From a virus: DNA of 40,006 bases. The stretch's first letter is position 1. Each line of letters begins with the position of its first letter. The stretch covers positions 1 through 40,006 of the IMG/VR virus record IMGVR_UViG_3300036820_000041; one strand, 5' to 3'. Position numbers and translations under genes: made by a program. The notes beneath the pieces are model-generated. The model searched no databases and had not been told where the DNA came from. It was given only the letters and a program-made list of their open reading frames with translations. This document shows, piece after piece, positions 4,944 through 24,605 of this stretch.

Positions 4944-4973
4944 TTAAAAAAAATACTTTACACTTTAGACAAA
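4944..4973 (-). promoter_or_regulatory. Conserved 30-base late element, copy 1
   Basis: On the minus strand it reads TTTGTCTAAAGTGTAAAGTA then TTTTTTTTAA. It matches the copy at 13375-13404 at 26 of 30 positions. It lies 15 bases from the ATG of the head-fibre-like gene. A phage-specific late promoter is the simplest reading. Confidence 0.6.
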
Positions 4974-4979
4974 AAAAAA

Positions 4980-6725
4980 CTAATCTTCTTCGAAAAACCT
5001 TAACTCATCTAGCATGTCGTCAACAAAATTATCTACACTACCCCATTCCTTTCTGACTTCTCGTTCTAGTCTGTCGAAATCTTTCTTAAGCAAGTTGAAG
5101 GAACTCTCAGCAGCGTGTTTTAGCGTTAGTTTGTATATCTCTCTTGTGGCATCGCGCGTTAGTAGTTTGCCTTGAATGTTCTTAGCGACTAGACTAGCAA
5201 CCCCTAACAAACCACCTTTCAAACTGTGTGGCAGGAATAGAAATGGCGCAAGCTGTCCCCAAGATTTAACTTCATTCAGAACGGCAGGACTACGCAGATC
5301 TATGAAACTTGCTATCTTTTCCTGAGCTTCTTTCCCGTACTTTGCAATGTCTCCGAGATCTTCTATTGCCTGCTTACTCATGTTTCTCTTTAGGAAATTA
5401 CCTTGTTTGGAGTGCAGCAATTTATCGAGTTTTTTATGGTTGTACGTTTCTCCGTCGAAAATCTTTGCTAGTAAACTTTCGGTCTGCTCTAGTTTTTTCA
5501 CTTCATGGTAGATCTTATTGGCAGCCTCGAATGCATGAGCCGTGTCTTTATGGTCTTGTGTCTTCATTAGTTCTATCGATTCATTTTTCAAAAACTCGTA
5601 GGCTTTTCTCACTTGCTCCTCACGGCCGGAGAACTCAGGTTTTCGATAGATCTGCTTCATGTCTGCGTTGTAGTTCATGTGCTGGTCAATCAATTGCTCT
5701 GCTGTAGGTTTCGATACTTTTAGGATGTCGCGTTGGTTTTCTAGAATCTGTATCGCTGCTCTCTGTGCGTCGCTAGGTGATGGTGCAAGTGACTGTATCC
5801 GCTCGATCTCTGCGTCGATGTTCTTTACCATAGGAATTGTACTGAGTTGTTTAGGATTCTTTTGCGCTAGTTTTCTTGTTACTTCATACGCATGTTCTCC
5901 TAACGCATCTAAATCCACACCACGATTCCTAAGTCTTGCCATCGGAAGCTCATCTTTTACTATTCGGTTGAGTGCTTCCTTTGGAGACAGGTTGAATGAT
6001 TCCTTTAGATTCTTCTCCGTTGCTTTAAACAATCTACCTTTGATAAGCGGCTCTCTCTCCCGTGCCATGAATTCTAGGAATGGTAGCGCATGTTTTTTTG
6101 CCGTTCTTTCTAGTTTCTGTGCCCCTTGCGACAACTGCCGTGCACCCTTACCAACCGCACCAGAAGACAGACTTGCGACATCACCGATCAATTCTGCCTT
6201 CGTTTCACCAACGCCGACACCTTTCAATGCCGCGGTTGTGCCTGCCCCAATTGTTCCTGTGGTAGCCTTTCTTGCGAGAGATCCCGGGGATAACGTAGCC
6301 AATGTAGCGAACTGTCCCGCACGCTTCCCTAGCTCAGTCTTTGGTTGAAGAGATAGTCCCGTTACCTTCTCGAATCCTTGCTCGGCTAACTCTTGTGTTG
6401 GGATGTACTGCGCCGTCTCGAATACACCTTTGACATAAGCCTCCCTATCGAACGGCTTTCCTTCCTTACGAAACGCTTCTTCTATCTCATCCAAGTCACT
6501 TAAACCTTCACCAATCATTCCTATTTTGAGTACATCTGCTGGCCAAGTAAAAGCCTTCAATGCTCCTCTTCCACCTTGCACAAAGACATCTCCTACGGTG
6601 TCCCAAAATCCAGGCTTCTCTTCATCGTCACGAAAGTCCAACGCCCTACTCTCGAAAGCCTCATCTTCTGCTGCTTCATCCGCTGCTAGATCAATTCCAA
6701 TGTCATCTAAAGCGCTGTCCGCCAT
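4980..6725 (-). CDS. Large putative ejection (internal virion) protein
   Basis: A 581-residue charged protein. The acidic start (MADSALDDIGIDLAADEAAE) leads into an amphipathic section with Gly-rich and Ala-rich segments at about 135-200 (GSLARKATTGTIGAGTTAAL), which could insert in membranes. A long helical, Lys/Glu-rich region (about 200-480) follows, then a hydrophobic patch LAPFLFLPHSLKGGLLGVAS near 500. No lysozyme or peptidase motif is seen. Its place, third in a row of helical proteins downstream of the tail genes, matches the ejection proteins of P22-like phages, which leave the capsid and build a DNA conduit. The start overlaps the previous gene by 19 bases. Confidence 0.55.
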   Translation of the reverse strand: MADSALDDIGIDLAADEAAEDEAFESRALDFRDDEEKPGFWDTVGDVFVQGGRGALKAFTWPADVLKIGMIGEGLSDLDEIEEAFRKEGKPFDREAYVKGVFETAQYIPTQELAEQGFEKVTGLSLQPKTELGKRAGQFATLATLSPGSLARKATTGTIGAGTTAALKGVGVGETKAELIGDVASLSSGAVGKGARQLSQGAQKLERTAKKHALPFLEFMAREREPLIKGRLFKATEKNLKESFNLSPKEALNRIVKDELPMARLRNRGVDLDALGEHAYEVTRKLAQKNPKQLSTIPMVKNIDAEIERIQSLAPSPSDAQRAAIQILENQRDILKVSKPTAEQLIDQHMNYNADMKQIYRKPEFSGREEQVRKAYEFLKNESIELMKTQDHKDTAHAFEAANKIYHEVKKLEQTESLLAKIFDGETYNHKKLDKLLHSKQGNFLKRNMSKQAIEDLGDIAKYGKEAQEKIASFIDLRSPAVLNEVKSWGQLAPFLFLPHSLKGGLLGVASLVAKNIQGKLLTRDATREIYKLTLKHAAESSFNLLKKDFDRLEREVRKEWGSVDNFVDDMLDELRFFEED

Positions 6726-8068
6726 GTCTTGTATCCTTTGCTCTGTGCGCGGTTGAGATCACTTGGTAGAATCGCCCTAAACTGTTGAGTCTCCGGGTTG
6801 AACACTAATTGATGGTCTTTGTACTTTGGTTCCTTTGCCATCTTGTCGAGGTAGTTAGTTGCTGTGTCCAAGTTGTTGATCTTACCTATAATTTCTGTTT
6901 GCTCACTTTCCCCTTTTTCTTCTGCTACCTTGAGTATGTCCGAATAGCTTGCATTGTTTCCGTAGTGCTTCAATCCCTTCGCTAGTGTGGTATCGTAGCT
7001 CATCTGTAACTCTGTCAATAGTCGCATCTGTTCTATGATTGCCCTTCTTCCATCCTCTGAGTTTAGTAATGTAGGTAGGCGCGCTTTGAAGGATTGCAAG
7101 TCGAAATTGGTCACCCTAGCACCGAAGAAGTTCTTGGCTTGTGAGATGAAGTCGTTGAGAGTCTTTACATACTGCTGCGTTTCTTTATTCACCCCTGCGA
7201 GCTTCTGTACGTTCTTAAATGGTTCCCCTGTCTCTGAATCGATTAGTAACCTTGAAACGCCATCTTGTACCTTCCCAGTATCGTTTAATGCCGTAAGCCT
7301 GTTGTAATGGATGAGCGCGTCTTGGCTAGCTTGATTCTTTGCCGTCACTTCCTTTAATTCTTTGCTGTTGAATGTTTGATTCTTCTCTCTCCACCGTACT
7401 CTGTCACTTGCTTTTGTTTCTGGAGGAGGTGAAATTTCTGGCCATTCTTCTTGTGGCTTGCCTGGTACTTTCTCAACCGCTGCTTCTATGGGTGCAATTG
7501 CTTCTTCAACAGGAAGCGGTATATCTTGGCCTACAGAAGCTTGTACTTGTTCTTGTGTAGGGGTAGACTGTTTAGGTTGTTGCATTCCTTCTGTGTCGTT
7601 CTGTTGAGGCGTAGGAGGCTTTCTAACACCACGAGACAGTTCATCAGTCACCACATCACTAACGTCTTGCTTCACAGATTTTGGCACGGCTGGATTCGCT
7701 ATGATCTTTGCTTCTACTGGCGTATATCCCTGACTCACTAGATCTGATACAAGTTGCTCTATCTCACCTGGCTTACCCACCTTTGCTCGCTTGATCTCTT
7801 CTTCACTCTTAGCTTTCCTCTTTAGCTCTTCAAATTGTTCCACACCCAAGTAATTGCTGAGTGCGCGTTGCTTTGCTTCAGGCCTGTATGTCTTCGCTCC
7901 TGTGATTGCGTTTAGCACATCCCTAGCACCTGCATTCGGTGGAAGATTCTGTATTGCTGCTTGTATCGAATTATCATCAGACCGGTTAATGTAGCCCTCT
8001 GTCGCACCACTACCGAACGAACTAAATGCCTTTGCCCAGTCGTCTTTTGCTGGAATGAATTGTGCCAT
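6707..8068 (-). CDS. Putative internal virion / ejection protein
   Basis: A 453-residue protein. The N-terminal 60 residues are Ala/Gly/Asn rich (WAKAFSSFGSGATEGYINRS), followed by helical charged stretches. A long Pro/Gln/Glu-rich linker at about 150-220 (PPTPQQNDTEGMQQPKQ) is followed by a helical C-terminal half. Linkers of this kind are usual in proteins packed inside the capsid and unfolded for ejection. No catalytic motif is visible. It starts two bases after the stop of the 8071-8616 gene and overlaps the next gene, so all three are one translational unit. Confidence 0.55.
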   Translation of the reverse strand: MAQFIPAKDDWAKAFSSFGSGATEGYINRSDDNSIQAAIQNLPPNAGARDVLNAITGAKTYRPEAKQRALSNYLGVEQFEELKRKAKSEEEIKRAKVGKPGEIEQLVSDLVSQGYTPVEAKIIANPAVPKSVKQDVSDVVTDELSRGVRKPPTPQQNDTEGMQQPKQSTPTQEQVQASVGQDIPLPVEEAIAPIEAAVEKVPGKPQEEWPEISPPPETKASDRVRWREKNQTFNSKELKEVTAKNQASQDALIHYNRLTALNDTGKVQDGVSRLLIDSETGEPFKNVQKLAGVNKETQQYVKTLNDFISQAKNFFGARVTNFDLQSFKARLPTLLNSEDGRRAIIEQMRLLTELQMSYDTTLAKGLKHYGNNASYSDILKVAEEKGESEQTEIIGKINNLDTATNYLDKMAKEPKYKDHQLVFNPETQQFRAILPSDLNRAQSKGYKTWRTAL

Positions 8069-8070
8069 CG

Positions 8071-8616
8071 TTACCCCGCTACTGCACTTTTGATTAAATT
8101 AGTCGCTGAACTTGCTACCCCTGGAATACCTGCTCCTGCTATCTGACCGATCCCCTGACCTGCCCCCTGCGCAAAGCCTTGTACAGCACCTGTGTTCCCT
8201 TGCTGGTAGATATTCTCAAAGCTCTTTGTGCCAAGTGCTGTGTTAACGCCTGCCAATTGATTCTGCTTTTGTTGCTCCTGCGCTTGGTACATGAGCTGGG
8301 CAAGCTTCGATTGCAAGTCCGTCCCAGCTTTCAGGCGTGCTTTGTTGAAACTTGACCCCTGCACGCTGCCACTATTGATGAACTGATGCGTGAGCTTTGG
8401 TAAAATATCTTCCTCGAACATCTTCAATGCCGGCTTCGATACACCTTCCTCAAACCCCTTCTGGTCAAATGAACCAAACAATTCCTTGAATGCACCGGTA
8501 CCTTTCGTCAGACCTTCGCTAATCAGTGCCATCAACTCTTCTTGCAGCGGCGTTTGCGTACCGGCTTTCTTGATCTTATCCTTCCCACCAAACAAAAATT
8601 CATTCAATTTAGGCAT
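8071..8616 (-). CDS. Putative ejection protein with Gly/Ala-rich C-terminus
   Basis: A 181-residue protein beginning MPKLNEFLFGGKDKIKK. The first 130 residues are helical, with a Gln-rich stretch (AQEQQKQNQLAG). The last 40 residues (AVQGFAQGAGQGIGQIAGAG and on) are small and hydrophobic, a membrane-active look shared with P22 gp7-like ejection proteins. The motif FINSGSVQGSSFNKARLKAG recalls 'GS..S..F..A...A' regions of gp7-like proteins. A GAGGGAA site precedes the ATG. Confidence 0.6.
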   Translation of the reverse strand: MPKLNEFLFGGKDKIKKAGTQTPLQEELMALISEGLTKGTGAFKELFGSFDQKGFEEGVSKPALKMFEEDILPKLTHQFINSGSVQGSSFNKARLKAGTDLQSKLAQLMYQAQEQQKQNQLAGVNTALGTKSFENIYQQGNTGAVQGFAQGAGQGIGQIAGAGIPGVASSATNLIKSAVAG

Positions 8617-8623
8617 AGTTCCC

Positions 8624-9112
8624 TCAGTTCTTTAAATAATACACAGTCACGTAGCCAGAGTACGCACTATAGTCAGTTCCCCCGCTTGTCAGTACAATGT
8701 TCGCGCCAGTGCAGAGCATCCCAATACTGTTCGCCCCTGTCACCGCATCAACATATGGCAAGACCAACGTATTACTAGAGAAGGTCGTTCCATTGCTCAC
8801 ATAACCCTCGATAGAGATCACTTTCAGTACGTCATTCTTCAGTGGTGCGATTGTCAGCGGTATCGTATTCACAGTTCCCCCGCTTGTCCATGAAGCAGTC
8901 GCAAGCGTTAACGTCCATATCGGCTGACCATCGATCCAGGTAAAACTCGTCTGCCGCTCAGCAGTAAAGAAACTCTCGTCATTGATGGTCGCATTCACAG
9001 AGTTCGCTACCGCAATGTGCTGCTGCTGCAACTGGTACTGGAATTGCTCTCTCTGGTCTTCCGGCTTGCCTTCGTACTTCTGCCAGCTAAAGTTCGGTTG
9101 TAGTTTCGCCAT
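8624..9112 (-). CDS. Phage virion protein, tail-associated
   Basis: A 162-residue protein. A helical start (WQKYEGKPEDQREQFQYQLQ) is followed by a beta-rich body with FTWIDGQPIWTLTLATASW, TIPLTIAPLKNDVLKVISIEG and a C-terminal GTDYSAYSGYVTVYYLKN. Proteins with this 'SFTW..G..IWT' and 'DYSAYSGYVT.YY' pattern sit next to the stabilisation gene in many podophages. They are probably tail-needle or collar parts; no experimental role is known to me. It abuts the 763-residue gene (stop and start share base 9112) and leaves seven bases to the next. Confidence 0.65.
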   Translation of the reverse strand: MAKLQPNFSWQKYEGKPEDQREQFQYQLQQQHIAVANSVNATINDESFFTAERQTSFTWIDGQPIWTLTLATASWTSGGTVNTIPLTIAPLKNDVLKVISIEGYVSNGTTFSSNTLVLPYVDAVTGANSIGMLCTGANIVLTSGGTDYSAYSGYVTVYYLKN

Positions 9113-11403
9113 TAGTTAAACACCCTTCCAGCAGGTTTCATGTATAGCACCATCGCATGTATGTATATCGGCTGGTCTACTGTGCTTGTAAAGTCCGCCG
9201 AGTTCTGATAAAACCTGACCGTGTGCTCTTTGCCTACTGCTCCTACATAGATCCGCTTCCATACCTTTGTCTGATTCGTGGTTGGGCTCATCGCATCTTT
9301 TGTATTAAACGTAAGCATTGTCTCTTGATAAAATCCTTGAGGAGTGCCGGTAGAATCGATATAAAGTTGGTCATTGAGATAGAACTGCACGCGGAGAGTT
9401 GAAGTACTATAGGCAGAGACAAACAAATCCACATAGCCAAGTCGAGCAAGCTGTCCATCTTCAATAAATGGGTTAAAGTTCTTCGAAATCACACTCATCA
9501 ACACAGGAGTAGTCCCATCGCCAAGAGTGTTTCCGTTATTCAGTTGATACACCTTATCGAATTGATCCCCGGCTAAGTCTATCAGCGCATCGTTCGTCAG
9601 TTGGTAGCTTCCCCACGTGTCTTCCATATCCTCCCACTCAGTAAAGATAGTCCCCCAAGTAGGCACGTTAAGAATCTGACCAAAGCCTAAACAGCTGAAA
9701 GGAAATTGATACACCGCATAGGTTCCGTCGAGATAGTTGAAAGCAAGCACGTTATCTGAAGCGGTAGTTTGCGATTGATCCATGGGCTTACTGTTGTAGC
9801 AAAGCCAGCCCTCCTTCAAGTCATCGAAACGCTCTCCATAACACTGCTGTATACTCGTCTGGTTCATGAATGGCACGGGAGTCTGCTGCGCAATTCGTGT
9901 CGGGTTAGTGAAGTCCGGGATAATCTCGTCAGCTCTCTTCACGTTCACACCATCAGAGGCAACAATCGCAGGACGGCCCACAGAAGAGAACCACGTGTCA
10001 TAGTTGATAGAGGAGTACGGTGCATTGCAAGCCCAGATAGAGTTGGTAGAGTCCCAGCGAAAAGGATCGAAAGCATCAGCCGTATAACGAAAGACCCTCT
10101 CTGACTTACTAAAACGAACCACAAGATCAGAGTTGATATAGCCTATCGTTTGAATGGATTGGCTTGTGTCCGCTGATAGAAAGTCGTCGTTGGTAAAGTT
10201 CAATGGTTCGAGAAAGACTGACCAATAGATCGTACTCACCTGCGGAACACCACTCACCGTCGGAGCAATCAGCAGAAGAGCCTGACGGTAAGTAAACACA
10301 TGCAAACACCGACTAATATCAAACGAAGGCACTCCCCCACTCGAACTGACCGTCATTATCCCTAGGTTCGTATTGAGATAGTGAACCGATACCCCATCAT
10401 AGTAAAATATCGGATCAACGTTGTTAGCAAAGAAAGCCTTGTATTGATAGTTGGTCAGCGAAAAAAAGTTAGAGATAGAGCCAGTGAATAAGTTCCCGTA
10501 GATGCCTGTAGTACTGTCGACATAGTTTCCGCTAGGAAGATTAGTCCCAAAAGTGATTGTGTATGCTCCAGTGACATAGTTGACAGAACCTGAAGTGACA
10601 CCAGAGCCAATCAATCCACCTACGCCATTGTCTGTGATTACAACTCCTGCGGAAGCCCCTGTCGAAAGATACTCCGTCCAAACAAGCGTACCAGGGACAA
10701 ACGGAACCCCAGGAAGAGTACCTGTGTATGTTGCCGTCATGCCATCACCAGTGAAGATCGCAGAGGAATAATAGTCATGCGGTAGTTCACTTACGGCTTG
10801 CAATGTATCAGAGTTAGAAGCTAAGACACCAAAGTTGCTCACAATCTGTCCCACACGCAACTGATCGAATACAAGGACTTGCTGCGAACCATTTTGATTA
10901 TAGTACTGCTTGATGCCCATGATCGCTGATGTAGAAGAAGGTGCCACATCCCAGCTAATGAAAATATTGCTATAGGTTCCACTAGGAGGAGCAGTATTGA
11001 AGGTGATAGAATACGCCCCTGTGGAGATATTAACGGTCCCTGTACCTCCAGCACTGCCAGTCAGGTTCACAACGGTAGAAGAGGCATCGCTAGAGTAAGA
11101 AAACGTCTCCGCAGAAGCACCAACACTGATCGTACCATAAGCGGTAATGTTCGAAGTCTTAGGCAATGGATTCAAGGTACCAGTAAAAGTCACAGTCATG
11201 CCATCAGGGGTACCAAGGCTAGCGATCTTCCGGTTAGTGAAGCGTGCAAACAAAGTATAGCCGGCAATTTTCTCAAGTACACCCCGATAGTTATGCGCAT
11301 TGAGTAACGATTGGTATGCCTCACGCGGAAGGAGCCAGGGTTCTAACGCTTCATCCAGAGATACACGAGAATTACTAATAGCGAAACCTTTGTATTCATT
11401 CAT
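9112..11403 (-). CDS. Tail stabilisation / head-completion protein (P22 gp10-like) with two inserted Ig-like domains
   Basis: A 763-residue protein. The core resembles gp10-like stabilisation proteins: an early RGVLEKIAGYTLFARF segment, then IMGIKQYYNQNGSQQVLVFDQ near 160-180, KAFFANNVDPIFYYDG near 320, VRFSKSERVFRYTAD, and a C-terminal MVLYMKPAG. Two extra beta domains at about 65-150 and 218-300 share D-G-M-T-x-T-(F/Y)-T-G-T-L at the start and T-G-A-Y-(S/T)-I-T-F-(N/G)-T-x-x-P-S-G at the end, so they are duplicates inserted into the core. It acts at the portal-tail junction, sealing DNA in. Assignment rests on pattern and position. Confidence 0.7.
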   Translation of the reverse strand: MNEYKGFAISNSRVSLDEALEPWLLPREAYQSLLNAHNYRGVLEKIAGYTLFARFTNRKIASLGTPDGMTVTFTGTLNPLPKTSNITAYGTISVGASAETFSYSSDASSTVVNLTGSAGGTGTVNISTGAYSITFNTAPPSGTYSNIFISWDVAPSSTSAIMGIKQYYNQNGSQQVLVFDQLRVGQIVSNFGVLASNSDTLQAVSELPHDYYSSAIFTGDGMTATYTGTLPGVPFVPGTLVWTEYLSTGASAGVVITDNGVGGLIGSGVTSGSVNYVTGAYTITFGTNLPSGNYVDSTTGIYGNLFTGSISNFFSLTNYQYKAFFANNVDPIFYYDGVSVHYLNTNLGIMTVSSSGGVPSFDISRCLHVFTYRQALLLIAPTVSGVPQVSTIYWSVFLEPLNFTNDDFLSADTSQSIQTIGYINSDLVVRFSKSERVFRYTADAFDPFRWDSTNSIWACNAPYSSINYDTWFSSVGRPAIVASDGVNVKRADEIIPDFTNPTRIAQQTPVPFMNQTSIQQCYGERFDDLKEGWLCYNSKPMDQSQTTASDNVLAFNYLDGTYAVYQFPFSCLGFGQILNVPTWGTIFTEWEDMEDTWGSYQLTNDALIDLAGDQFDKVYQLNNGNTLGDGTTPVLMSVISKNFNPFIEDGQLARLGYVDLFVSAYSTSTLRVQFYLNDQLYIDSTGTPQGFYQETMLTFNTKDAMSPTTNQTKVWKRIYVGAVGKEHTVRFYQNSADFTSTVDQPIYIHAMVLYMKPAGRVFN

Positions 11404-11972: not shown

Positions 11973-11984
11973 GCCATTATTCCT

Positions 11985-12965
11985 TTAAAACTTTGATATA
12001 GACCTTTCGTACAGAAGCTCCTCGTAAGTGTCTTGCATACATACGTCCTTGAAGCGGGTGTACTCCGGAAGGTATTGGTCATATTGGTCCATTTGGTTGA
12101 AGAGCTTGAATCGATGCAAAGCCGCCCCTAGCGCAATCAGTGGTCCTAGGTCAGGGCGGAATGGCACGTCGATATAGTTCAGAAATGGCTGCGGTACCTG
12201 TATGCCTTCCATCTTGATTAGATACACTTGATCCGGCACAGGACGCAGAACAAACATATTCACTGCATTGAGCGTCCCCTGTGTAGCGTCAAGCAAGGGT
12301 GTCTGTGGGTAGAACAAGATTGCCTGCGGACGGTTTGGCATGTACGTTTGTGAGGTGGCCGCGATAGATGCATTAGCCGCAGGATTTGAAAGAAAAACTA
12401 AGCCAGTCAGAGTTCCCGTAGAATAGTCTATAGAACCGGAGACAGAGCCAGTGTTGCCAAGAGGAGCCACTTGAGTAAGTCCTCCGGTCCCATTATCTTG
12501 CACGACTTGAGTTCCATCGGTGACATATAAGCTCCTTGGTAAGATTGGGTAGGCAGATATCTGGGCAGAAAAGTCATTGATAGTTGTGTAAGTTCCTATC
12601 GTTTGTTTGTTGAGTTGCTGCGGATAGTCTTGATAGAAAGTGCCCTGATCCGTGTACCATTCAATACCAAACCCGTCGGCGTACACTGTCGGATTCACGG
12701 TCTGAAAGCCAGCGGGCGCAAGGTACTGATCTATGTTCGCCTGGCAATAAAACTGGTAGAACGTGTAACCCCAGAAGATCTTTAGCTCCTTCGGCAACAC
12801 GTATTGATAGTAATAATTAATTAACGTGCAACATTGAGCGTCGGAATACATCGAAGCATCCGGAATACCACAAATGGATCGAAACTCCGACAGGATCGCG
12901 TTAAAGTTCCATCCGGCCGTAGAATTCCAGTTCGCTAAAGGATATCCCGGTATTGCTCCTGTCAT
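11985..12965 (-). CDS. Head-tail connector / tail accessory factor
   Basis: A 326-residue protein. The N-terminal part has FNAILSEFRSICGIPDASMY with a following long helix (CTLINYYYQYVLPKELKIFW), as in head-tail connectors just upstream of stabilisation proteins (P22 gp4-type position). Residues about 140-210 look like a third copy of the inserted Ig-like domain: VVQDNGTGGL, SGSIDYSTGTLTGLVF, then a Pro/Asn segment. The C-terminal third returns to a helical core, PFRPDLGPLIALGAALHRFK and YTRFKDVCMQDTYEELLYER. It shares its last base with the ATG region of the next gene (stop and start meet at 12965). Confidence 0.6.
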   Translation of the reverse strand: MTGAIPGYPLANWNSTAGWNFNAILSEFRSICGIPDASMYSDAQCCTLINYYYQYVLPKELKIFWGYTFYQFYCQANIDQYLAPAGFQTVNPTVYADGFGIEWYTDQGTFYQDYPQQLNKQTIGTYTTINDFSAQISAYPILPRSLYVTDGTQVVQDNGTGGLTQVAPLGNTGSVSGSIDYSTGTLTGLVFLSNPAANASIAATSQTYMPNRPQAILFYPQTPLLDATQGTLNAVNMFVLRPVPDQVYLIKMEGIQVPQPFLNYIDVPFRPDLGPLIALGAALHRFKLFNQMDQYDQYLPEYTRFKDVCMQDTYEELLYERSISKF

Positions 12966-13366
12966 TACGTCCTCTCACAAACAAAGTGCGTTCTGTACCC
13001 TGCTACGTAGATCTCTGGTATCCCTTCCTTGTTGCGTCGGTGCTTGTGAATATTCTCCCGGCAGCTCTCCAAGTTTCGAATAACCTCTAACGGCAGCTCG
13101 TACTTTTCACCGTCGATGAGTTTGTACTGCTTGAATGGATGTGTCTTGCTAGCATAGTGAAATTCCAGAGGGTATCCGGGGTCTCGCTGATTTCGAAAGG
13201 TGATCGTCTCTATCTTTGGTATCTCTGTGGCAACGACTACCTGCCCTTCCTTCATCTCTTTAGCAATCACTTCCATAGACTCATTCGCTGGTCCAGTTAG
13301 ATACTCCTCCTGCAATTGCTCTACAGGTACCTTCTTCTCTCTCTCTTTCTTCAAAACTACTGTCAT
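12965..13366 (-). CDS. Conserved phage structural-module protein of unknown role
   Basis: A 133-residue charged protein. A Lys/Glu-rich start (MTVVLKKEREKKVPVEQLQE) is followed by TITFRNQRDPGYPLEFHYAS, the phrase THPFKQYKLIDGEKYELPLE, then NLESCRENIHKHRRNKEGIP. Phage proteins with 'FRN.RDPG.PLEFHY' lie between capsid and connector genes. I can give no function. GAGGG lies just before the ATG, itself just downstream of a late-motif copy (13375-13404), so this gene seems to start a transcription unit for tail genes. Confidence 0.65.
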   Translation of the reverse strand: MTVVLKKEREKKVPVEQLQEEYLTGPANESMEVIAKEMKEGQVVVATEIPKIETITFRNQRDPGYPLEFHYASKTHPFKQYKLIDGEKYELPLEVIRNLESCRENIHKHRRNKEGIPEIYVAGYRTHFVCERT

Positions 13367-13374
13367 AAACCCTC

Positions 13375-13404
13375 TTAAAATAAATTCTTTACAATTGAGA
13401 CAAA
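13375..13404 (-). promoter_or_regulatory. Conserved 30-base late element, copy 2
   Basis: On the minus strand it begins TTTGTCTCAATTGTAAAG and ends TTTATTTTAA. It matches copy 1 at 26 of 30 positions and the 16282-16311 copy at 24 of 30. It lies eight bases before the ATG at 13366. Confidence 0.65.
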
Positions 13405-13409
13405 TTTTT

Positions 13410-14542: not shown

Positions 14543-15487
14543 TTACAATCGTTGTGTGGACAATAGGCGTGTGATCCAGTTGTCGTTCAAGAGTCGTGTC
14601 GCAAATGGGTACTTATATCCAACACTCCCTCTTTGGTTTAATGGATCGCTCGTACCACTGGAACCAAGCGGCTTCACGATGAATTCGGCCTCTTTTGAAC
14701 CAAGCTTGACCACTCCATATGCTTCCTGGCCAACGATAATACTGTTCCAGACTGGATTCGATGCACCGTTGTTATAACCATTAGTGCTGAGCAACCATCG
14801 GCAATTATTTGTACTACCCCATTCCGCCTCTAACGCATCCATAGGGTTAGGATAGTTCGCTACGCTCAGGAAGTCCGCACAAGCTTCTAAGTCGAGCTGA
14901 AGCGTCACATCCATGAATCCCCAAAAACTGCTACGTACTGGACTAGTCGCGAAGCGGTTTTCCCCAGGGATTGGCTTCGTCATCAACCGCGCATTCCCTA
15001 ATCGAAGAGCACGTACCGCAGTTTTAATATCCTGTGTAGTTAGCTCTGTCGGGGTTAGTCCATCAATTCCGTATTGGCATGAGATCGAACTTGCTGTCGC
15101 GACCATCATGTTACGAATCAGGGTGTCGATTGTTAAGCCTAATTGTAAACTTAATACTCTAGTTGCTTCATTTAATACTCTGTCCTGTACTGTGAATTGA
15201 ACCTGATCGGTAATAACGACAAAGTTCCCGTACCATTGAATTTGTGTACTAAAGTCCGTGACAGCGAGAGAATCCCCTGGCGGTGTCGTTCCATCTTGGA
15301 TAGGTACTGTTGCTGCAAGAAGCGTACTGTACCGACGAAAGACCATCTGGTTACCAGAGTTCAGCGGTATAGTTCTTCTTTGAGCAAACAAATCATAAAT
15401 ATAATAAGGTCTTGCCAAGGTCAGCAGTAGTCGGTCAAAGTAAGTCCGTACTTCTGGGGGTACTTGGGCTGTAGTCGTAAGTGGCAT
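14543..15487 (-). CDS. Major capsid protein, N4-gp56 family
   Basis: A 314-residue protein, close to the family's usual ~300-400. Family signs: an N-terminal LTTTAQVPPEVRTYFDRLLL, the GNQMVFRRYSTLLAATVPI strand-turn with the P-loop TPPGDS, the 'W-Y-G-N-F-V-V-I-T-D-Q' spine, DTLIRNMMVATASS, and a C-terminal VWNSIIVGQEAYGVVKLGSK-type end before the conserved GSVGYKYPFATRLLNDNWI. It has the HK97 fold by family. It forms the icosahedral shell and is preceded by the scaffold gene, the usual order. The start is supported by an AAGG site; in the core all expected segments are present. Confidence 0.9.
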   Translation of the reverse strand: MPLTTTAQVPPEVRTYFDRLLLTLARPYYIYDLFAQRRTIPLNSGNQMVFRRYSTLLAATVPIQDGTTPPGDSLAVTDFSTQIQWYGNFVVITDQVQFTVQDRVLNEATRVLSLQLGLTIDTLIRNMMVATASSISCQYGIDGLTPTELTTQDIKTAVRALRLGNARLMTKPIPGENRFATSPVRSSFWGFMDVTLQLDLEACADFLSVANYPNPMDALEAEWGSTNNCRWLLSTNGYNNGASNPVWNSIIVGQEAYGVVKLGSKEAEFIVKPLGSSGTSDPLNQRGSVGYKYPFATRLLNDNWITRLLSTQRL

Positions 15488-15505: not shown

Positions 15506-16237
15506 TTAGATATTCGCCAGATTCCTCGCAGCTATTTTCATAAAATCTTCATCGCTCATACTCGCATAGTAGTCGGCTGCGCTCAGTTGCCCTTGCCCAC
15601 CAACGCTTGCTAAAGTTTGCGGTTTGCTTGCATTCGTAAGTGCTCGTTGCCCATTGCTACTGGTATGTGGCTCTGGTGGCTGACTCGCTTTTGCATTTAA
15701 TTCCGCTAACAGGTATGCTGCCTCATATGGATTCGAAACCTTCTGGATCATCTCGGCAAATATCGGGTTCTTGCTAGTTAATTGCGGTACGTGCTTAGTG
15801 ACCATTGCGTTCCAGTCCTGACGTTGGGCCTTTGTTTCGATGGCAGTTAACGCGTCTTTGATCTCCCCCCGGAGTATGACGTTTTCCTGTCTCATTGAAT
15901 CGAAGGCCTTTCTAACGTCGCGCCCATCATCCCAGTCCAATGCCGCATAAGCATCTTCCTTTGTGACTTGCGCCGATTCTGGCCGTGGTATCTTCGAGTA
16001 TGCTTCCGCTTGCCCTTTCCAATACTCACGCTCTGACTGCAATCTCGCTGCTTCCTCACGTAATGCCCGAAAGTTCATCTCCTTGTCGGACACTTGCTGC
16101 TGACCGGCGACATCTAGCTCAGTTACGCCCGCGCGACCGTCGACGAATTGGTCCATGTTTACGTCGTTTGAGTTGTATTGTGCTTGAGACTCAGGAAACA
16201 ACTCCCCCCCTGGCCTCGACATATCTATATCTTCCAT
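15506..16237 (-). CDS. Capsid scaffolding protein
   Basis: A 243-residue acidic, strongly helical protein with a coiled-coil stretch about 45-120 (FRALREEAARLQSEREYWKG and on). The region near 120-190 is helical with Ala and Glu. The C-terminus, AADYYASMSDEDFMKIAARN, is a short helix of the type that binds capsid in scaffold proteins. It lies just before the capsid gene, the usual place. The ATG at 16237 is chosen because AGAGGA is seven bases upstream. Function is from shape and context; scaffolds diverge rapidly in sequence. Confidence 0.75.
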   Translation of the reverse strand: MEDIDMSRPGGELFPESQAQYNSNDVNMDQFVDGRAGVTELDVAGQQQVSDKEMNFRALREEAARLQSEREYWKGQAEAYSKIPRPESAQVTKEDAYAALDWDDGRDVRKAFDSMRQENVILRGEIKDALTAIETKAQRQDWNAMVTKHVPQLTSKNPIFAEMIQKVSNPYEAAYLLAELNAKASQPPEPHTSSNGQRALTNASKPQTLASVGGQGQLSAADYYASMSDEDFMKIAARNLANI

Positions 16238-16281
16238 TCATTCCTCTTTAGTCTCGGCGACAGACCAGTTCACGCCCGTTA

Positions 16282-16311
16282 TTCAAATAAAATCTTGTCA
16301 CTTGAGGCAAA
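16282..16311 (-). promoter_or_regulatory. Conserved 30-base late element, copy 3
   Basis: On the minus strand: TTTGCCTCAAGTGACAAGAT, then TTTATTTGAA. It has 24 of 30 identities to copy 2 and 23 of 30 to copy 4. It is 44 bases upstream of the scaffold ATG and lies after a stop, in a gap of about 150 bases, so it probably feeds the scaffold and capsid genes. Confidence 0.65.
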
Positions 16312-17062: not shown

Positions 17063-17123
17063 TTGTATTCTCCGTTTGTTACACTCATTTTTAGGCAAGT
17101 AGTCTCGTAGCTAACACCAGCTT

Positions 17124-17240: not shown

Positions 17241-17241
17241 G

Positions 17242-17427: not shown

Positions 17428-17494
17428 AGCTTTGTAAAACTTCTATTCTCTAATCAACCACAAGTTTCTATCTAGGTATTCTTCCGCTTCTTTA

Positions 17495-17914: not shown

Positions 17915-17929
17915 TCACAGACACTCCCT

Positions 17930-18163: not shown

Positions 18164-18168
18164 GGTTT

Positions 18169-18560: not shown

Positions 18561-18562
18561 AC

Positions 18563-18895: not shown

Positions 18896-19028
18896 TCAGA
18901 GATGCGACCAAAGCAGTACCAAGTAAGATTCCAGAGTCCACCTTTCCCAATACATTAAAAATAAATTGTGCTCTGAAACCCATCTCGTACAAAAGTCTCA
19001 TCAAATCAATCTTGTCTTTGTCGCTCAT
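18888..19028 (-). CDS. Tiny protein after the portal gene
   Basis: A 46-residue ORF, MSDKDKIDLMRLLYEMGFRA, then QFIFNVLGKVDSGILLGTAL and VASLNE. Its ATG overlaps the portal stop (ATGA), and it overlaps the next start by eight bases. A helix with a hydrophobic C-terminal half suggests membrane or portal association. Too short for a usual ORF cut-off but well supported by coupling. Confidence 0.55.
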   Translation of the reverse strand: MSDKDKIDLMRLLYEMGFRAQFIFNVLGKVDSGILLGTALVASLNE

Positions 19029-20992
19029 TTCTTACTCCCTGTAACTGCTGGCTGCGGTACCACTGTATCTGCCGACTTGAACCGCTGCTCTTCTTCGATA
19101 CCCCTAATCATCTCCAATAACTTCCCGGCATTGTTCACATCGATCTCGTCCATCTCTTTCATCGCTCGTACCTCATTCAGTCCAGCCCTTGACCGCTCTT
19201 CCTGTGCCGCTGCTAGTCGCTCTTCGCTCAATGCCGCATCGTACTTGATCCTGCTCAGACGCTCTTCTCCCAAGGAAATATCCGTAAACGCTTTTGCTTG
19301 CAGTAGCTCGTTGACCTGTTTCCTGTCTTCCATCTCTTGCTTCTGCTCTGCCTGCGCCGCCTGTGCCCTCTGCTGAACCAACTCCATCCCACGCTTACTG
19401 ATCGGGTACGGCGACATCTCCCACAACATCTCATCAGGAACGTATACCCCACCAGCCTTCATTGTCCACGCTTGCATAAACGCTTGCTGCTTCTGTGTCT
19501 CCGTCATTGGGTATTCCATAAAGTCAATGTCGTACTCAAGGAATGTGTTGTTGTAAAATTCAGGTGTTGGAGTCTGCTTGATTAATCGCTCGACTTTTTC
19601 CGGCGTGAACTTTTGTATCAGCTTCAACACCTTTTTGTTCAGTAAGTAGTCGGCCTCGCGAAAGTTATCCATAATTGGGCCGAGTTGCATGATCGCCATC
19701 GACTGCTTCATCTTGAAAAGCATCGCACTCATCCGGTCAGTATCGTCACTCCCAAGCGCTCCCAAATCGACGTAGTCCTTGATGTCGTTATCGAAAGAGT
19801 CCTGCAATGCAAATAAACTCTCTGGTAACGTAGGTGGATTAATCCTCTCAGCATCGGTTATCTCAAAGCCGGGATTGAAAAACACAACCTTACCCTGGCC
19901 CGTCTGAAACAATGACCGAGGATTCGATACCGCTCCACTCTTTGCCTTCCAACCACTGCCAATCTGCGAGTCCATAATGTCGAGTAGCTTGCTCTTGCGC
20001 ATGTTGTACTCTTCATTTGAATCTCTAAGCAGTCTCTGTAGGCCCTGGATCTTCCACTGAAATAAATCGTATGAAGGGTCAAATACACAGTAATAGGGCA
20101 CGAAAGGGTACTCTGAAATACCCCAGGGATCTTCACCACTGTACAGCAACCGATTCTCGACAATGATGTTATACTCTACCGTCTTGTAGTACCCCTCGAT
20201 CACAGCCAAGTTAGGAAAGAACCTCTGCAACATGTCCAATCGCTTCCTGTCGCCCTTCCACGGTTTCTGCTCACCACTCTGCCTATCAACTAAGATCCAC
20301 CCCTTCTTGTACCGCTGCTTCCAGTATTCGTTGTATGAAAGTAATTCCTGTAATCCCCATTGGCGCGCGTAAGGTTCATAAGTAAATTTTTCATCTCTAT
20401 TACCATAACCCATTGCATCGACTTCACGCTCACTCCCAGGCACTAATGACTTGATCACGTCTTTGCTCAGGTACTTTCTTCGCGCCACAAACGTACAGTC
20501 TTCAAGGTCTATGCGGGAACTGAAGGGGTCCCAGATAACGTCATTCCAGTTGTCCAGGTGAAACTCGATTCGCCCGTTGACATAGTCGCTGCGATAGTCT
20601 ACCCAAGGCGACACCCACGCTATTCCACTGACCAGACTGTTGTGCCTGGCTCGATTCGATACCTTGTACCCCTTCGGATTCATCTGCGTCTGGAGCAACT
20701 CTGTCAATTGTGAAGCCGTCTCTGGATTGGAATTCTCTCGGTGGACTACAACACTCTGCATCTGATTGGCACTCAAGTATCCGCTGACCATGTTGATCGT
20801 CTTGCGGCTCTTGTTGAACGTAAAAGCATTGCGCCTCTCCTCATTCAAGTACTTCATCTGCTCCAAAGACCACTGATTGCCAAGGTAGAACCCCACATCC
20901 CGATATTGCTCAGCGTATAGTGGATTCAAAAGCATGTAAGAGCGGTTGTAGTCCTGCGTAAAATCACTGACAACATCAAAATCCGTAGGCAT
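19025..20992 (-). CDS. Portal protein (P22-like)
   Basis: A 655-residue protein. N-terminal patterns DFTQDYNRSYMLLNPLYAEQ, FYLGNQWSLEQMKYLNEERR and FNKSRKTINMVSGYLSANQM match the N-terminal part of P22-type portals ('N.....V..V.G'). Later come ARRKYLSKDVIKSLVPGSE, VEGYYKTVEYNI-type strands, PFVPYYCVFDPSYDLF, LQRLLRDSNEEYNMRKSKLL and a DSQIGSGWKAKSGAV segment. The C-terminal ~90 residues form a helical barrel-like, Gln/Glu-rich region. It is a dodecameric DNA channel at one capsid vertex, docking terminase and tail. Upstream of scaffold and capsid, the usual order. Length is in the P22 range (~725). Confidence 0.85.
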   Translation of the reverse strand: MPTDFDVVSDFTQDYNRSYMLLNPLYAEQYRDVGFYLGNQWSLEQMKYLNEERRNAFTFNKSRKTINMVSGYLSANQMQSVVVHRENSNPETASQLTELLQTQMNPKGYKVSNRARHNSLVSGIAWVSPWVDYRSDYVNGRIEFHLDNWNDVIWDPFSSRIDLEDCTFVARRKYLSKDVIKSLVPGSEREVDAMGYGNRDEKFTYEPYARQWGLQELLSYNEYWKQRYKKGWILVDRQSGEQKPWKGDRKRLDMLQRFFPNLAVIEGYYKTVEYNIIVENRLLYSGEDPWGISEYPFVPYYCVFDPSYDLFQWKIQGLQRLLRDSNEEYNMRKSKLLDIMDSQIGSGWKAKSGAVSNPRSLFQTGQGKVVFFNPGFEITDAERINPPTLPESLFALQDSFDNDIKDYVDLGALGSDDTDRMSAMLFKMKQSMAIMQLGPIMDNFREADYLLNKKVLKLIQKFTPEKVERLIKQTPTPEFYNNTFLEYDIDFMEYPMTETQKQQAFMQAWTMKAGGVYVPDEMLWEMSPYPISKRGMELVQQRAQAAQAEQKQEMEDRKQVNELLQAKAFTDISLGEERLSRIKYDAALSEERLAAAQEERSRAGLNEVRAMKEMDEIDVNNAGKLLEMIRGIEEEQRFKSADTVVPQPAVTGSKK

Positions 20993-21022
20993 AGATACCC
21001 TTGTGCAAACTCATCTAACACA

Positions 21023-21052
21023 AGTAAAGTATTTATTTTAATTGTAGGCAAG
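21023..21052 (-). promoter_or_regulatory. Diverged late element, copy 5 (portal)
   Basis: On the minus strand, CTTGCCTACAATTAAAATAA then ATACTTTACT. It fits the late element with a one-base shift: TTGCCT, AATT, then an A/T tract. It lies 30 bases before the portal ATG, where a late promoter is expected. Confidence 0.4.
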
Positions 21053-21110
21053 AGATATTAAAGAAAAATTTTTAGCAAGACACAGAATCGATACAGAGAG
21101 AAACTTTGAT

Positions 21111-21139
21111 TGACAACTTGTAGACTCTGGGACTATTGT
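21111..21139 (+). promoter_or_regulatory. Sigma70-like promoter for the replication operon
   Basis: TTGACA (21111-21116), 17-base spacer, TATTGT (21134-21139). Transcription would start near 21145 and make a leader of about 180 bases holding both inverted repeats before the first ATG at 21327. Confidence 0.55.
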
Positions 21140-21156
21140 GAGAGAAATAAAAGGAA

Positions 21157-21200
21157 GCCCACACTATTACTGAAGGCTGTTAGAAGCTGGTAGTGTGGGC
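21157..21200 (+). repeat. Inverted repeat / stem-loop in the leader, 10 to 13 bp
   Basis: GCCCACACTA (21157-21166) is the exact reverse complement of TAGTGTGGGC (21191-21200). Two T-G wobbles and an A-T pair could extend the stem to 13, leaving an 18-base loop. No T-run follows, so it is not a simple terminator. Confidence 0.75.
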
Positions 21201-21220
21201 AAGATATCATACAATAAGAC

Positions 21221-21288
21221 AAGAAGCTGTATACCTGAACTTTGAACGGATTGGGTATACTAGTTACAAGCTCAATATACAGCTTCTT
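21221..21288 (+). repeat. Second inverted repeat with a competing inner repeat
   Basis: AAGAAGCTGTAT (21221-21232) and ATACAGCTTCTT (21277-21288) are exact reverse complements, 44 bases apart. Inside, GTATACC (21229-21235) can pair with GGTATAC (21254-21260), which uses bases of the outer left arm. The two foldings cannot form together fully, so the leader could switch between them. Confidence 0.7.
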
Positions 21289-21326
21289 ACGAATAAAGAG
21301 CAATCATATTCAATAGGAGCTGAGAA

Positions 21327-22280
21327 ATGTCAATCATCCGTACAGTCCATAATAAGTTCAATCCATACTCCTGCCTTAACAATCAAGCTCTCTTCGACCC
21401 TCAATTACACCATTCTGCTCGTGGTCTATGGGCTCAGTGTATGGCTCGCAAAGACGACTGGACCTTCTATATCAAAGAATTAGCAACGCATACTCTTGAT
21501 GGAAGAGACGCAATCTACACACAAATCAAAGAACTGATGAAAGCGGGGTACTGCGCAAGAATAAGGATCAAACAAAAGAACCCAAAAGGAAGCGGATCTC
21601 TGTTCGGCGGTATTGAATATATCCTTTTCGAAACCAAAGCCACTCAAGAAATGAAAGACGAATACCTGCGAGAATTTCAAAAAAAACATCCACACGCAGA
21701 ATATCTACCGCTAGAGAGAAAACAGGAAGAATTAAAGAAATGTTTCCCGCATCCGGCATTTCCCGATCTGGGAAAGCCGGCACTAACAAGTACTGAAGAA
21801 CAAGCAAGTAATGAAACACAATGTTATGATGTCGCGCGAGCGCGAGTTGTTGAAAAACCTTCTTTTGATTATGCTACTACGGAAGAAGAAGCTCCTGATC
21901 CTAAAGAATCTCCTCCATGGAAACCTATGCAAGATGAAGTTGGTCCTATCGAATATATCACCCCCGCAGGCAAGAAAAAGCAAGTGACCGAAACAGAGAT
22001 CTATCAGAAGTTCCTTAAAGAGCCATACAACACAGAAACGGTAAAAACAGCCATCAAACGTTTGCGCAAGAACACCTCCCCCATCAGTGACCCAATCAAG
22101 TACCTACTAGGCATCTGTGCCAATGTGGAGAAAGCAAAGAAGAACACATCTATGAAGAAAAAACGGGTAGAAAAAACAGAGGCTGACTATACTGAGATAT
22201 CAAAGAAACCCGAAGTAAACATTAGCTGGCAAGAACTACTAAAGAAAAATAATGAAAAACCCCTTTGGAAACCGCTATGA
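21327..22280 (+). CDS. Replication initiator-like protein with N-terminal winged helix
   Basis: A 317-residue protein. Residues about 10-90 read NKFNPYSCLNNQALFDPQLH, then ARGLWAQCMARKDDWTFYIK, and ELMKAGYCARIRIKQ. This fits the 'N..L.D..LS..A.GL......DDW.F....L......GR.AI...I.EL...GY' helix-turn-helix common in phage and plasmid replication initiators. The centre (100-200) is low-complexity and acidic. The C-terminal part (from ~210) is helical and Lys-rich, ending ISWQELLKKNNEKPLWKPL, which may contact the helicase or loader. The next gene, a DnaC-like loader, overlaps it by 29 bases. AGGAG lies seven bases before the ATG. It is named by pattern and context only. Confidence 0.7.
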   Translation: MSIIRTVHNKFNPYSCLNNQALFDPQLHHSARGLWAQCMARKDDWTFYIKELATHTLDGRDAIYTQIKELMKAGYCARIRIKQKNPKGSGSLFGGIEYILFETKATQEMKDEYLREFQKKHPHAEYLPLERKQEELKKCFPHPAFPDLGKPALTSTEEQASNETQCYDVARARVVEKPSFDYATTEEEAPDPKESPPWKPMQDEVGPIEYITPAGKKKQVTETEIYQKFLKEPYNTETVKTAIKRLRKNTSPISDPIKYLLGICANVEKAKKNTSMKKKRVEKTEADYTEISKKPEVNISWQELLKKNNEKPLWKPL

Positions 22281-22791
22281 TGATGCTCATTTATCTAAAG
22301 TAGAACAAAGCGAAAGTGATATAGAAAAAATTAATTATTGGTGGAAAAATCCTTCTGGAACCCTATATATGTGTGGAAATGCTGGGACTGGGAAGACTTA
22401 TATCTGTGCAGCATTCTACAACCAGTTTGGATGGGATAAATGTCGTGCCTATCGAGAATGTGATTTACTGGCTCATCTTCGAGAAACTATTAATAAAAAC
22501 TGGGACGCTATAACAGAGATCAAAAGATTGTGCCAGATTGAGTACATGATTCTAGATGATTTAGGTAGTTCATCAATGACAGATTGGCAGAAAGAAATGT
22601 TGTTTTGTTTCATTGACGAACGTTACAACAATAAGCTTCCCACCATTATTACATCTAATCTAGACACGAAACAAATGAAAAATACATTCCACAATCGTAT
22701 GTTCTCTAGACTATATGCAAAAGAAAATGTAGTTATAGATTTATTAAATTCAGATGACCGAAGACAAAACATACACTTTGTAGGCAAATAA
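22252..22791 (+). CDS. DnaC/IstB-like AAA+ helicase loader
   Basis: A 179-residue ATPase. Walker A CGNAGTGKT at residues 41-49, Walker B YMILDDLG at 98-105, sensor-type TIITSNL at 131-137, and a possible arginine finger in RMFSRLY at 149-155. DnaC-family loaders open the DnaB ring and place it on DNA; one is expected here beside the initiator and with the DnaB-like helicase at the left edge. It is shorter than bacterial DnaC (~245), as the N-terminal helicase-binding domain is very short. It overlaps the initiator by 29 bases and its stop overlaps the next ATG (TAATG). Confidence 0.85.
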   Translation: MKNPFGNRYDDAHLSKVEQSESDIEKINYWWKNPSGTLYMCGNAGTGKTYICAAFYNQFGWDKCRAYRECDLLAHLRETINKNWDAITEIKRLCQIEYMILDDLGSSSMTDWQKEMLFCFIDERYNNKLPTIITSNLDTKQMKNTFHNRMFSRLYAKENVVIDLLNSDDRRQNIHFVGK

Positions 22792-23420
22792 TGGAAATAG
22801 TAACAAAGCAAGAATTCGATGAAGCAATCTATGGTCTCAGCAAGCAGGTCGTAGCACTCAAGGCATCGTGTATAAACAAAGAACAATTTAATAAAACCAT
22901 CGGTAACGTAGCCAGATACCTAGCAGACATCCATTGTATTATAACTACACTCGCCAGCCCCACATCCCCTTCATCCTCTCATAGTCCCCATCATCCACTC
23001 CCCGATCAGAGCGATAGTCCGATTCCGTCAGAGCCAACATTCGAAACGCATCCGCCCCATGACTCGTGTAATCATGAAATGGCTTGTCCCCGTATACCCG
23101 AAACTTCTCATTATACACCTTCCGGTAGTTCTCCAAACACTTCAACCCGAGTTCGCATCGCTTTTCATCAAACCAGCAACGCCCGAGAATCATACGCACA
23201 GCTTCTATCCCAAATTCTAAGCTCGCTTTTGGCGCAACACGGTAGCTCAACCCTAACCTCCGAGCTGTTTCAAGTCTTGTCTTCCCTGTTGTCAACTCCC
23301 GGGCTTGAATGTCATGTGGAGCAACGTGCAGGTCATATATGCATCCAGTTTCTCTCCGAAAATCATCCAAGATCCGTGCATAGTGAGCTAACCCTTCACC
23401 AGAATTCTCATAGTAGTTGA
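22791..23420 (+). CDS. ORF of unknown function running antisense into the terminase gene
   Basis: A 209-residue ORF whose ATG overlaps the loader stop (TAATG). Residues 1-55 look like a real helical protein (FDEAIYGLSKQVVALKASCI and on). From about residue 56 the reading frame is antisense to the 3' end of the terminase gene, and the text becomes Ser/Pro/His-rich (SPTSPSSSHSPHHPLPDQSD) with no fold signs. No stop occurs until 23420, so the tail would be translated if the start is used. A frame break near the terminase end, or a truly overlapping convergent pair, would both explain this. The N-terminal part is more certain than the tail. Confidence 0.4.
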   Translation: MEIVTKQEFDEAIYGLSKQVVALKASCINKEQFNKTIGNVARYLADIHCIITTLASPTSPSSSHSPHHPLPDQSDSPIPSEPTFETHPPHDSCNHEMACPRIPETSHYTPSGSSPNTSTRVRIAFHQTSNARESYAQLLSQILSSLLAQHGSSTLTSELFQVLSSLLSTPGLECHVEQRAGHICIQFLSENHPRSVHSELTLHQNSHSS

Positions 23421-24276
23421 TCGCATGAACCTCTTTTCCGATGAATTGAACAAACCAAATGGCCGTACTATCACCAATGCCCAAATCCCAGTAAGTTCGT
23501 ACAGTCACAGCAGGATCGTAGGGCACACGGCATATCTGACCTTTCTTGCGCAACTCATCCATCTGCCTGCCATAGTAGCTTCCCTCTTGTCCACGGTTGA
23601 AATTACAGTAAAACTCCTGCTGTATCATATCCTCTGGCATACCCTTGCGACGTTCGGATTCTATTTGCTCTTCCGTCAGAACGCCCGTGTCAGCAACCGT
23701 CAGTATCTGGAAGAACCACTCATCTGGGTTACGCCTCGCAATCTCAGCCAAGTCCCAGCCGTGATTCTTGCCTCGCGGGGTATAGATAAACGCACACCAT
23801 CCTCCATTCGCTGCCAGAATCGGTTTGACGAACTCATAGGCCATCGGGTCCATCAAAGACCACTCACTGAAGACCACCCCCCTTGGATTCGTTCCCATAA
23901 TTGCATCATACGAGTCTGCGCCTATGAGCTGAATCAAGCTCTGTCCATGGGCACCATTAATCCAGACCTTCATTTCAGTATTGTTTGGATTACCGTCGAT
24001 GATGGCCTTTGGAATATAATCGAGCATCCTTTTCCCATCATTCGTCATACCGTCCCACAAAACCCTCTTAGCCTGCGCAAAGCTAGGAAGGAAGTAGTAG
24101 TAGGTTCCTGGCTCCAAATAGGCCCGCTTGATCATATAGTTCCACATCGTAGTGTCTTTCCCACCCCTTCTATGTACCACCCAACAGATATTCCTGACTC
24201 CCTCGTCTAGCGCATTCAACACGTCTTCCTGGTAGGTTCTTGGCTCAAATCCGTATGGTAGCGTTATCTCCTTCAT
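22945..24276 (-). CDS. terL: Terminase large subunit
   Basis: A 443-residue packaging motor. ATPase: Walker A variant V-V-H-R-R-G-G-K-D at residues 33-41 and Walker B VVFSEW at 134-139. Nuclease: D264 in TYWDLGIGDS, D322 in APHDIQARE, and D404/D409 in HDYTSHGADAFRM, the RNase H-type cluster. It pumps DNA into the capsid through the portal and cuts it. The 'HRRGGKD' P-loop is usual for this branch. The ATG at 24276 is supported by overlap with the previous stop (ATGA) and a CGGAG site. Its 3' end is overlapped by the plus-strand ORF at 22791-23420. Confidence 0.95.
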   Translation of the reverse strand: MKEITLPYGFEPRTYQEDVLNALDEGVRNICWVVHRRGGKDTTMWNYMIKRAYLEPGTYYYFLPSFAQAKRVLWDGMTNDGKRMLDYIPKAIIDGNPNNTEMKVWINGAHGQSLIQLIGADSYDAIMGTNPRGVVFSEWSLMDPMAYEFVKPILAANGGWCAFIYTPRGKNHGWDLAEIARRNPDEWFFQILTVADTGVLTEEQIESERRKGMPEDMIQQEFYCNFNRGQEGSYYGRQMDELRKKGQICRVPYDPAVTVRTYWDLGIGDSTAIWFVQFIGKEVHAINYYENSGEGLAHYARILDDFRRETGCIYDLHVAPHDIQARELTTGKTRLETARRLGLSYRVAPKASLEFGIEAVRMILGRCWFDEKRCELGLKCLENYRKVYNEKFRVYGDKPFHDYTSHGADAFRMLALTESDYRSDRGVDDGDYERMKGMWGWRV

Positions 24277-24572
24277 AGGCCCATGCTCCGTTTTTCCTCT
24301 TCCGTTATTTCTCTAACATTCGTGCTCGCTATCAACTGATGCAGCAAGTCCATATTCTCCCGGCAGAAGATCGTAAACACACATATCTGCTTCAACCGAA
24401 CAATCGCTGCTGCGTCCTGGTCTACTCGCGATTCCAACTGACCCATGAACGAAAGCTCCTCAAGAAGCCCCGCCATTTGCCCTACAAACGTTTCAAACTC
24501 CTCTGGTCCACTAAAGCACTGCGCGACCTGAAGCAAAGCCTCTGGAGTCACTAGAAAAAGCCTACGCACCAT
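24273..24572 (-). CDS. Protein encoded just upstream of terL
   Basis: A 99-residue helical protein starting MVRRLFLVTPEALLQVAQCF. It overlaps terL by four bases (ATGA). It could be a small subunit by position, but it has no helix-turn-helix pattern, and a better small-terminase candidate lies at 33619-34044. It may be a terL regulator or partner. A late element abuts its start, with GAGG four bases before the ATG. Confidence 0.55.
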   Translation of the reverse strand: MVRRLFLVTPEALLQVAQCFSGPEEFETFVGQMAGLLEELSFMGQLESRVDQDAAAIVRLKQICVFTIFCRENMDLLHQLIASTNVREITEEEKRSMGL

Positions 24573-24575
24573 TAC

Positions 24576-24605
24576 CTCAAATAAAAAGTTGTCACAAAAA
24601 GCAAA
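24576..24605 (-). promoter_or_regulatory. Conserved 30-base late element, copy 4
   Basis: Minus strand: TTTGCTTTTTGTGACAACTT then TTTATTTGAG. It matches copy 3 at 23 of 30. Only three bases separate it from the ATG at 24572, and its 3' end contains the GAGG ribosome-binding site. Any transcription start must therefore lie inside the element. Confidence 0.5.

Follow-up and report, generated by a model that had tools for sequence, protein, structure and literature searches.

A conserved 37-bp element before late genes in a little-known family of tailed phages is a putative late promoter

We describe a 37-bp element that faces the late and packaging genes of a phage represented by an IMG/VR record of 40,006 bp, complete or nearly so, the whole of which was analysed here (hereafter the window). 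The element is conserved at orthologous positions among relatives, has sharp limits and a fixed orientation, follows directly after terminator-like hairpins at several sites, lacks sigma70 boxes and shares its core with sites at early control regions. Our preferred reading is that it is a family-specific late promoter, used by the host polymerase together with a phage regulator that would also bind early operators, and we consider the chances of this reading to be evenly balanced.

Results

Around 100 relatives were retrieved from viral contigs, and a PSSM was built from 16 scaffold-upstream sites of relatives, with the window left out. It matches only four places in the window:

4944-4973, minus strand: late element copy, 38.2 bits, 15 nt before g4380 (4380-4928)
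13375-13404, minus strand: late element copy, 31.5 bits, 8 nt before g12965 (12965-13366)
16282-16311, minus strand: late element copy, 43.5 bits, 44 bases before the scaffold-position gene (15506-16237)
24576-24605, minus strand: late element copy, 28.6 bits, 3 bases before the TerL operon (24273-24572, then TerL at 22945-24276)

These scores are far above those of 100 windows simulated with a third-order Markov model (mean maximum score 2.2, highest 21.4), and a degenerate pattern gave ~36 matches in 30 related records, compared with none for the reversed pattern. The four copies, with their coordinates and strand, had been proposed in an initial annotation made from the letters of the window; they are real, and the hand-counted identities given there (26/30, 24/30 and 23/30) were reproduced exactly, as was the spacing of 3 to 44 bases to the ATGs. 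The relatives also support its view of a phage-specific, oriented element at the starts of late and packaging genes, and show that the element is conserved between orthologues.

Approximately 40 orthologous copies lie before scaffold, g4380, TerL and related genes, and nearly all strong copies aim at the late gene downstream. The most widely conserved site is the scaffold-position copy, found in 14 genomes and in a contig of a Chlamydiales MAG (L149); in the window, the major head protein gene (14543-15487) is also downstream of this copy. The copy before g4380 has orthologues in ~12 relatives, TerL or its upstream gene is preceded by the element in several genomes (with TerL-upstream copies in G001, G004, G008 and L024), and one relative, G007, shares the copy before g12965. 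Strong copies number 0-4 per genome. At least five close relatives have no element at scaffold, and two contigs (G006 and G009) have no full late copy at all, so the element is not the sole route to late expression. In some relatives the absence is clean, the stop codon of the previous gene adjoining the leader. When 2.9 million viral contigs were searched with two exact patterns, 18 stretches were found, 16 of them with genes of this phage family and the other two being one shared sequence. The 37-base signal is nearly restricted to one little-known family of tailed phages.

Across 40 unique late copies the conserved module spans columns -6 to 31, and the flanks show no conservation either upstream or downstream of it. 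Its layout is an A/T tract, TTTGYC, N5, TG(A/T)(C/A)AAG, W9 and KAA(A). As the initial annotation had remarked, there is no resemblance to sigma70 promoters: the best sigma70 scores near the late copies averaged 7.0, compared with 7.4 (sd 1.8) for shuffles, and the 30-bp matrix offers no hexamer frame that combines A at position 2 with T at position 6, as a -10 box would. The idea of an operator overlapping a nearby sigma70 promoter was rejected, as no such promoter was found at the late copies. A dimer operator, suggested by a 12-bp dyad spacing, was likewise rejected, with no covariation between the partner columns (15/28, p 0.75); the neighbouring columns 14 and 15 are the only ones to covary.

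The surroundings of the late copies are informative on where transcription might begin, and are best illustrated by the copy before TerL, which follows a hairpin:

24603-24631, minus strand: intrinsic-terminator-like hairpin, 9-pair stem, loop of 4, TTTTTTT, -9.5 kcal/mol

The 5' T-run of the 24576 element is the T-run of this hairpin (24631-24610), and no sigma70-like promoter was found in 24300-25200, the region before TerL, where this arrangement leaves no space for a promoter other than the element. Terminator-like hairpins abut copies before TerL (in the window and G001), before scaffold (G014 and L030), at a site in G016 and before the portal gene (L088). On the other side, the g4380 ribosome-binding site begins at columns 31-34 (AAGGAG, 3 nt past the 4944 copy), and the pseudoknot of the scaffold leader starts within a few bases of the element; scaffold copies lie 39-52 nt from the start codon, and copies elsewhere often 3-15 nt. 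The very short leaders envisaged earlier are forced by these adjoining ribosome-binding sites. In several genomes, and at TerL in the window, the element lies between a terminator and a ribosome-binding site or leader; short of read-through at the terminator, transcription has to begin at the element itself. Given working terminators, and leaders that are whole in the RNA, we infer a start within the element or at its 3' end, which is our chief reason to read it as a promoter.

The leader of the scaffold-position gene has a structure of its own:

16250-16277, minus strand: H-type leader pseudoknot, directly after the 16282 element

It is built on a covarying 5-bp hairpin with a CGCC loop, to which GGCG pairs. 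In the alignment, 98.9% of cells are paired, with 34 double changes and a covariation that none of 500 shuffles matched, and two genomes have a compensatory change inside the pseudoknot helix. The pseudoknot, for which Rfam gave no matches, is kept as far as a distant clade, with or without the element, and is perhaps a translational operator of the capsid genes.

A diverged fifth copy had also been placed at 21023-21052 on the minus strand. It did not survive comparison: it matches the others at only 13-16 of 30 positions and is on the wrong strand. Instead, 21012-21041 on the plus strand (CATCTAACACAAGTAAAGTATTTATTTTAA) matches two copies at 20-21 of 30, and contains a half-element:

21024-21041, plus strand: right half of the element, GTAAAGTATTTATTTTAA, in the divergent region between portal and replication genes

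It faces the replication genes, and in relatives the same gap holds an outward-facing pair of half-elements.

Sites of this kind are not confined to the portal gap. With the 19-bp core defined as columns 12-30, and enrichment measured against composition-matched shuffles, core sites recur in either orientation at the early control region, the small-terminase-like gene and the portal gene. The corresponding features of the window are:

1207-1235, plus strand: sigma70-type early promoter, TTGACA-17-TATACC, from direct sequence reading
1243-1261, plus strand: 19-bp core, AGTTAAGTTAAAATTTTAA, a weak match here at 8.2 bits, located roughly at +1 to +20 of the early recombination operon
21110-21139: early promoter, TTGACA-18-TATTGT, from direct sequence reading
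34101-34119, plus strand: core-like site, 10.1 bits, overlapping the -35 of the promoter of the small-terminase-like gene in opposite orientation

Enrichment was seen in 11 out of 18 genomes for the early control region, the divergent stretch between the 923-1162 gene and the early recombination operon (Fisher p 8e-12), in 9 out of 19 before the small-terminase-like gene at 33619-34044 (p 5e-10) and in 19 out of 22 before portal (p 4e-25); given the kinship of the genomes, these p values make the evidence look more independent than it is. Before g38460 it was found in none of 18 genomes. The two promoters listed agree with the earlier assignment of TTGACA-type promoters to early genes; the clean split between early and late signals that went with it does not hold, as the core is also found early.

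In a distant clade, with head proteins of 70-76% identity, TATAAT or TACAAT stands 4 bp behind the portal copy, and the site reads TGWHAA-17-TAYMAT with a fixed spacing of 17 bp at 14 loci. The core thus sits within a promoter at these loci, and its placement indicates that it is part of transcription control in both clades. Since the late copies of the near clade have no such -10 behind the core, no single start-site geometry applies to both.

Among possible readers of the core, the leading candidate is encoded beside the early site:

923-1162, minus strand: 79-aa ribbon-helix-helix-like protein, divergent from the early operon, beside the core

It is present in the window and in all 17 other close relatives examined, with the exception of the fragment G018. 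The top Foldseek matches were the ribbon-helix-helix proteins ParD, Reg576 and TraM, all at E > 1 and hence below significance; searching the PDB by sequence brought up HP0222 (E 0.34), and a Pfam search gave nothing relevant. The sequence pattern and these sub-threshold fold matches weakly suggest a ribbon-helix-helix protein. In G012 and G016 its predicted DNA-contact strand is strongly changed, and the motif is still canonical.

A second ribbon-helix-helix-like protein (71 aa, 35954-36169, plus strand) overlaps the start of the integrase gene and is kept in 17 genomes; it was rejected as the reader, as its predicted DNA-contact strand varies and the motif is constant. Also set aside as a regulator was the 141-aa protein of 33619-34044 (minus strand), kept in all close relatives, which in our reading of the alignment resembles a small terminase subunit. 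Searches found no database family match for it, and its gene sits 9 kb from TerL.

For sigma factors, PF04545 gave no match above the cut-off in 18 records (the control was positive in 14 genomes), a search that a strongly diverged sigma factor could escape. PF00940, for single-subunit polymerases, also gave none in the 18 records, the control genomes being equally empty. The non-structural part of the genome contains no conserved gene of polymerase size.

Discussion

How might such an element work? Because it has no sigma70 boxes, the host polymerase is most likely directed by the phage. We propose that a phage protein recognising the core, TGNMAAG-N6-TTTKAA, would direct host RNA polymerase to the element, with a start point in the A/T-only stretch on the 3' side of the element or where the element ends, at about columns 25-32, so that the RNA would begin right before the ribosome-binding site or the leader pseudoknot. 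The same core near early promoters suggests a single early/late switch protein, which would restrain the early operons and turn on the late ones. It should be noted that the core sites beside early promoters resemble operators, and would fit a repressor too.

This brings us to a serious, if less likely, alternative, in which the copies are dispersed repressor operators or roadblocks like the stoperators of mycobacteriophage L5. The bound repressor would prevent initiation at early operons and stop elongation into late ones, which would silence the prophage, and the late genes would be read from far upstream. It would account for core sites that flank or overlap early promoters, as well as for those within the promoter of the small-terminase-like gene, for late copies that stand without promoter boxes right before ribosome-binding sites, and for copies that come and go among relatives of a phage with the integrase of a temperate one. 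As in L5 and TipsytheTRex, these are short phage-specific sites at promoters and intergenic gaps. L5-type stoperators, too, are placed within promoters and in short gaps between genes, and are oriented with transcription (PMC9283540). The full element shares this orientation, whereas the early core occurs either way round. However, a roadblock straight behind a strong terminator, where several copies lie, would be redundant, and capsid and TerL genes behind terminators would be left without a promoter. Furthermore, L5 has more than 20 sites of 13 bp and a two-domain monomeric repressor, whereas here there are 0-4 strong sites of 37 bp per genome and no L5-like repressor was found, and the late copies have a 5' extension absent from the operator-like sites. 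The string TG(T/A)CAAG is common to the element and to the L5 consensus.

Other readings meet greater difficulties. A promoter for an overlooked single-subunit RNA polymerase or sigma factor of the phage would explain why sigma70 boxes are missing, and a short, self-contained promoter with a start at its 3' end resembles those of single-subunit polymerases; we consider it improbable, given that neither a member of the sigma70 region 4 family above the cut-off in the 18 records nor a conserved polymerase-size gene in the non-structural part was found. It is even less probable that the element belongs to translation, as do the start-associated sequences of cluster K mycobacteriophages. SAS and ESAS are likewise repeated right before start codons (here often at 3-15 nt), in a single orientation, and absent from the host. 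The 13-bp SAS (GGGATAGGAGCCC), however, overlaps the ribosome-binding site, whereas our element differs in sequence, contains no such site and precedes it or the leader, and at scaffold the start codon is 39-52 nt off, with a structured leader in between. Besides, the element belongs to structural and packaging genes, whereas cluster K SAS lie on non-structural genes (PMC3203893). Least credible to us is a weak intrinsic terminator, in which TTTGTC-N6-GACAAG would form a hairpin before a T tract. In some copies the two sides can indeed pair, and a T-rich stretch comes next; but C5 with A14 is frequent, the pair does not covary (p 0.56), copies lie directly before the ribosome-binding sites of essential genes, and real hairpins already precede several of them.

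The late promoter that we favor has partial parallels. In phi29, protein p4 binds near early and late promoters, represses the former and activates the latter with the host polymerase, much as we propose for one phage protein here; yet the phi29 late promoter retains its -10 box and p4 binds far upstream, whereas here the presumed start region is itself within the conserved sequence, which shows no -10. In T4 middle promoters a MotA box replaces the -35, and a TTTGCTT-like box ~30 bp before the presumed start would take the same place here. T4 retains the TATAAT -10, however, which our element lacks, and no relative of MotA or AsiA was identified. A more specific version seems doubtful to us: a class of promoters with neither -10 nor -35 box, in tailed temperate phages of Chlamydiota-like hosts, in which the 79-aa protein, as a ribbon-helix-helix regulator, would shut early operons and also recruit host RNA polymerase to a 37-bp site spanning the start point. 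If the element does work without these boxes, it would add to the means by which phages redirect host polymerase. In addition, the ~40 orthologous sites, the core, the candidate regulators and the predicted starts give a testable handle on the transcription program of this uncultured family of temperate phages.

The window encodes a phrog_1357 head protein, a phrog_156 portal, TerL and an integrase, from which the phage is probably temperate. Its DnaB gene is cut at both ends of the window, and some close relatives of 38-41 kb have end repeats. In a scan of GTDB species with the portal, the sole near relative was the Chlamydiales MAG contig (89% identity); a genome scan with the head protein gave no matches. 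Portal relatives (L149 and L150-L159) are binned in 11 out of 234 Chlamydiota genomes, and as these contigs, where checked, do not exceed the size of a phage (5-41 kb), they represent co-binning, with integration in the host only putative. Co-binning hints at Chlamydiota as hosts of the family and leaves the host uncertain. Tailed phages of Chlamydiota appear to be little described so far; if these are the hosts, the element would give an uncommon look at how the phylum's tailed phages regulate their genes. As a promoter of Chlamydiota themselves the element was rejected: ~49 matches in the 234 genomes, compared with ~16 for a reversed control, do not make it a common host signal. The chlamydial Euo and PhoB motifs (PMC4989314) resemble it only loosely, being A/T-rich, and were likewise set aside.

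Two further features concern coding sequences of the family. A RusA-like ORF and a 247-aa ORF in another frame (38234-38728 and 38460-39203, respectively, minus strand) overlap by ~270 bases, and the latter is kept in all close relatives. The head protein gene, which has no insert in the window, is split at four or more different positions by related inserts of 208-370 nt in at least 10 loci of relatives (L054/L055, L089/L090, L095, L100, L102 and L104-L106). One insert was compared with Rfam and had no match, even with the threshold at E 1; the inserts carry group I intron-like motifs (GACTAAGTGAG..GCGATAGTC).
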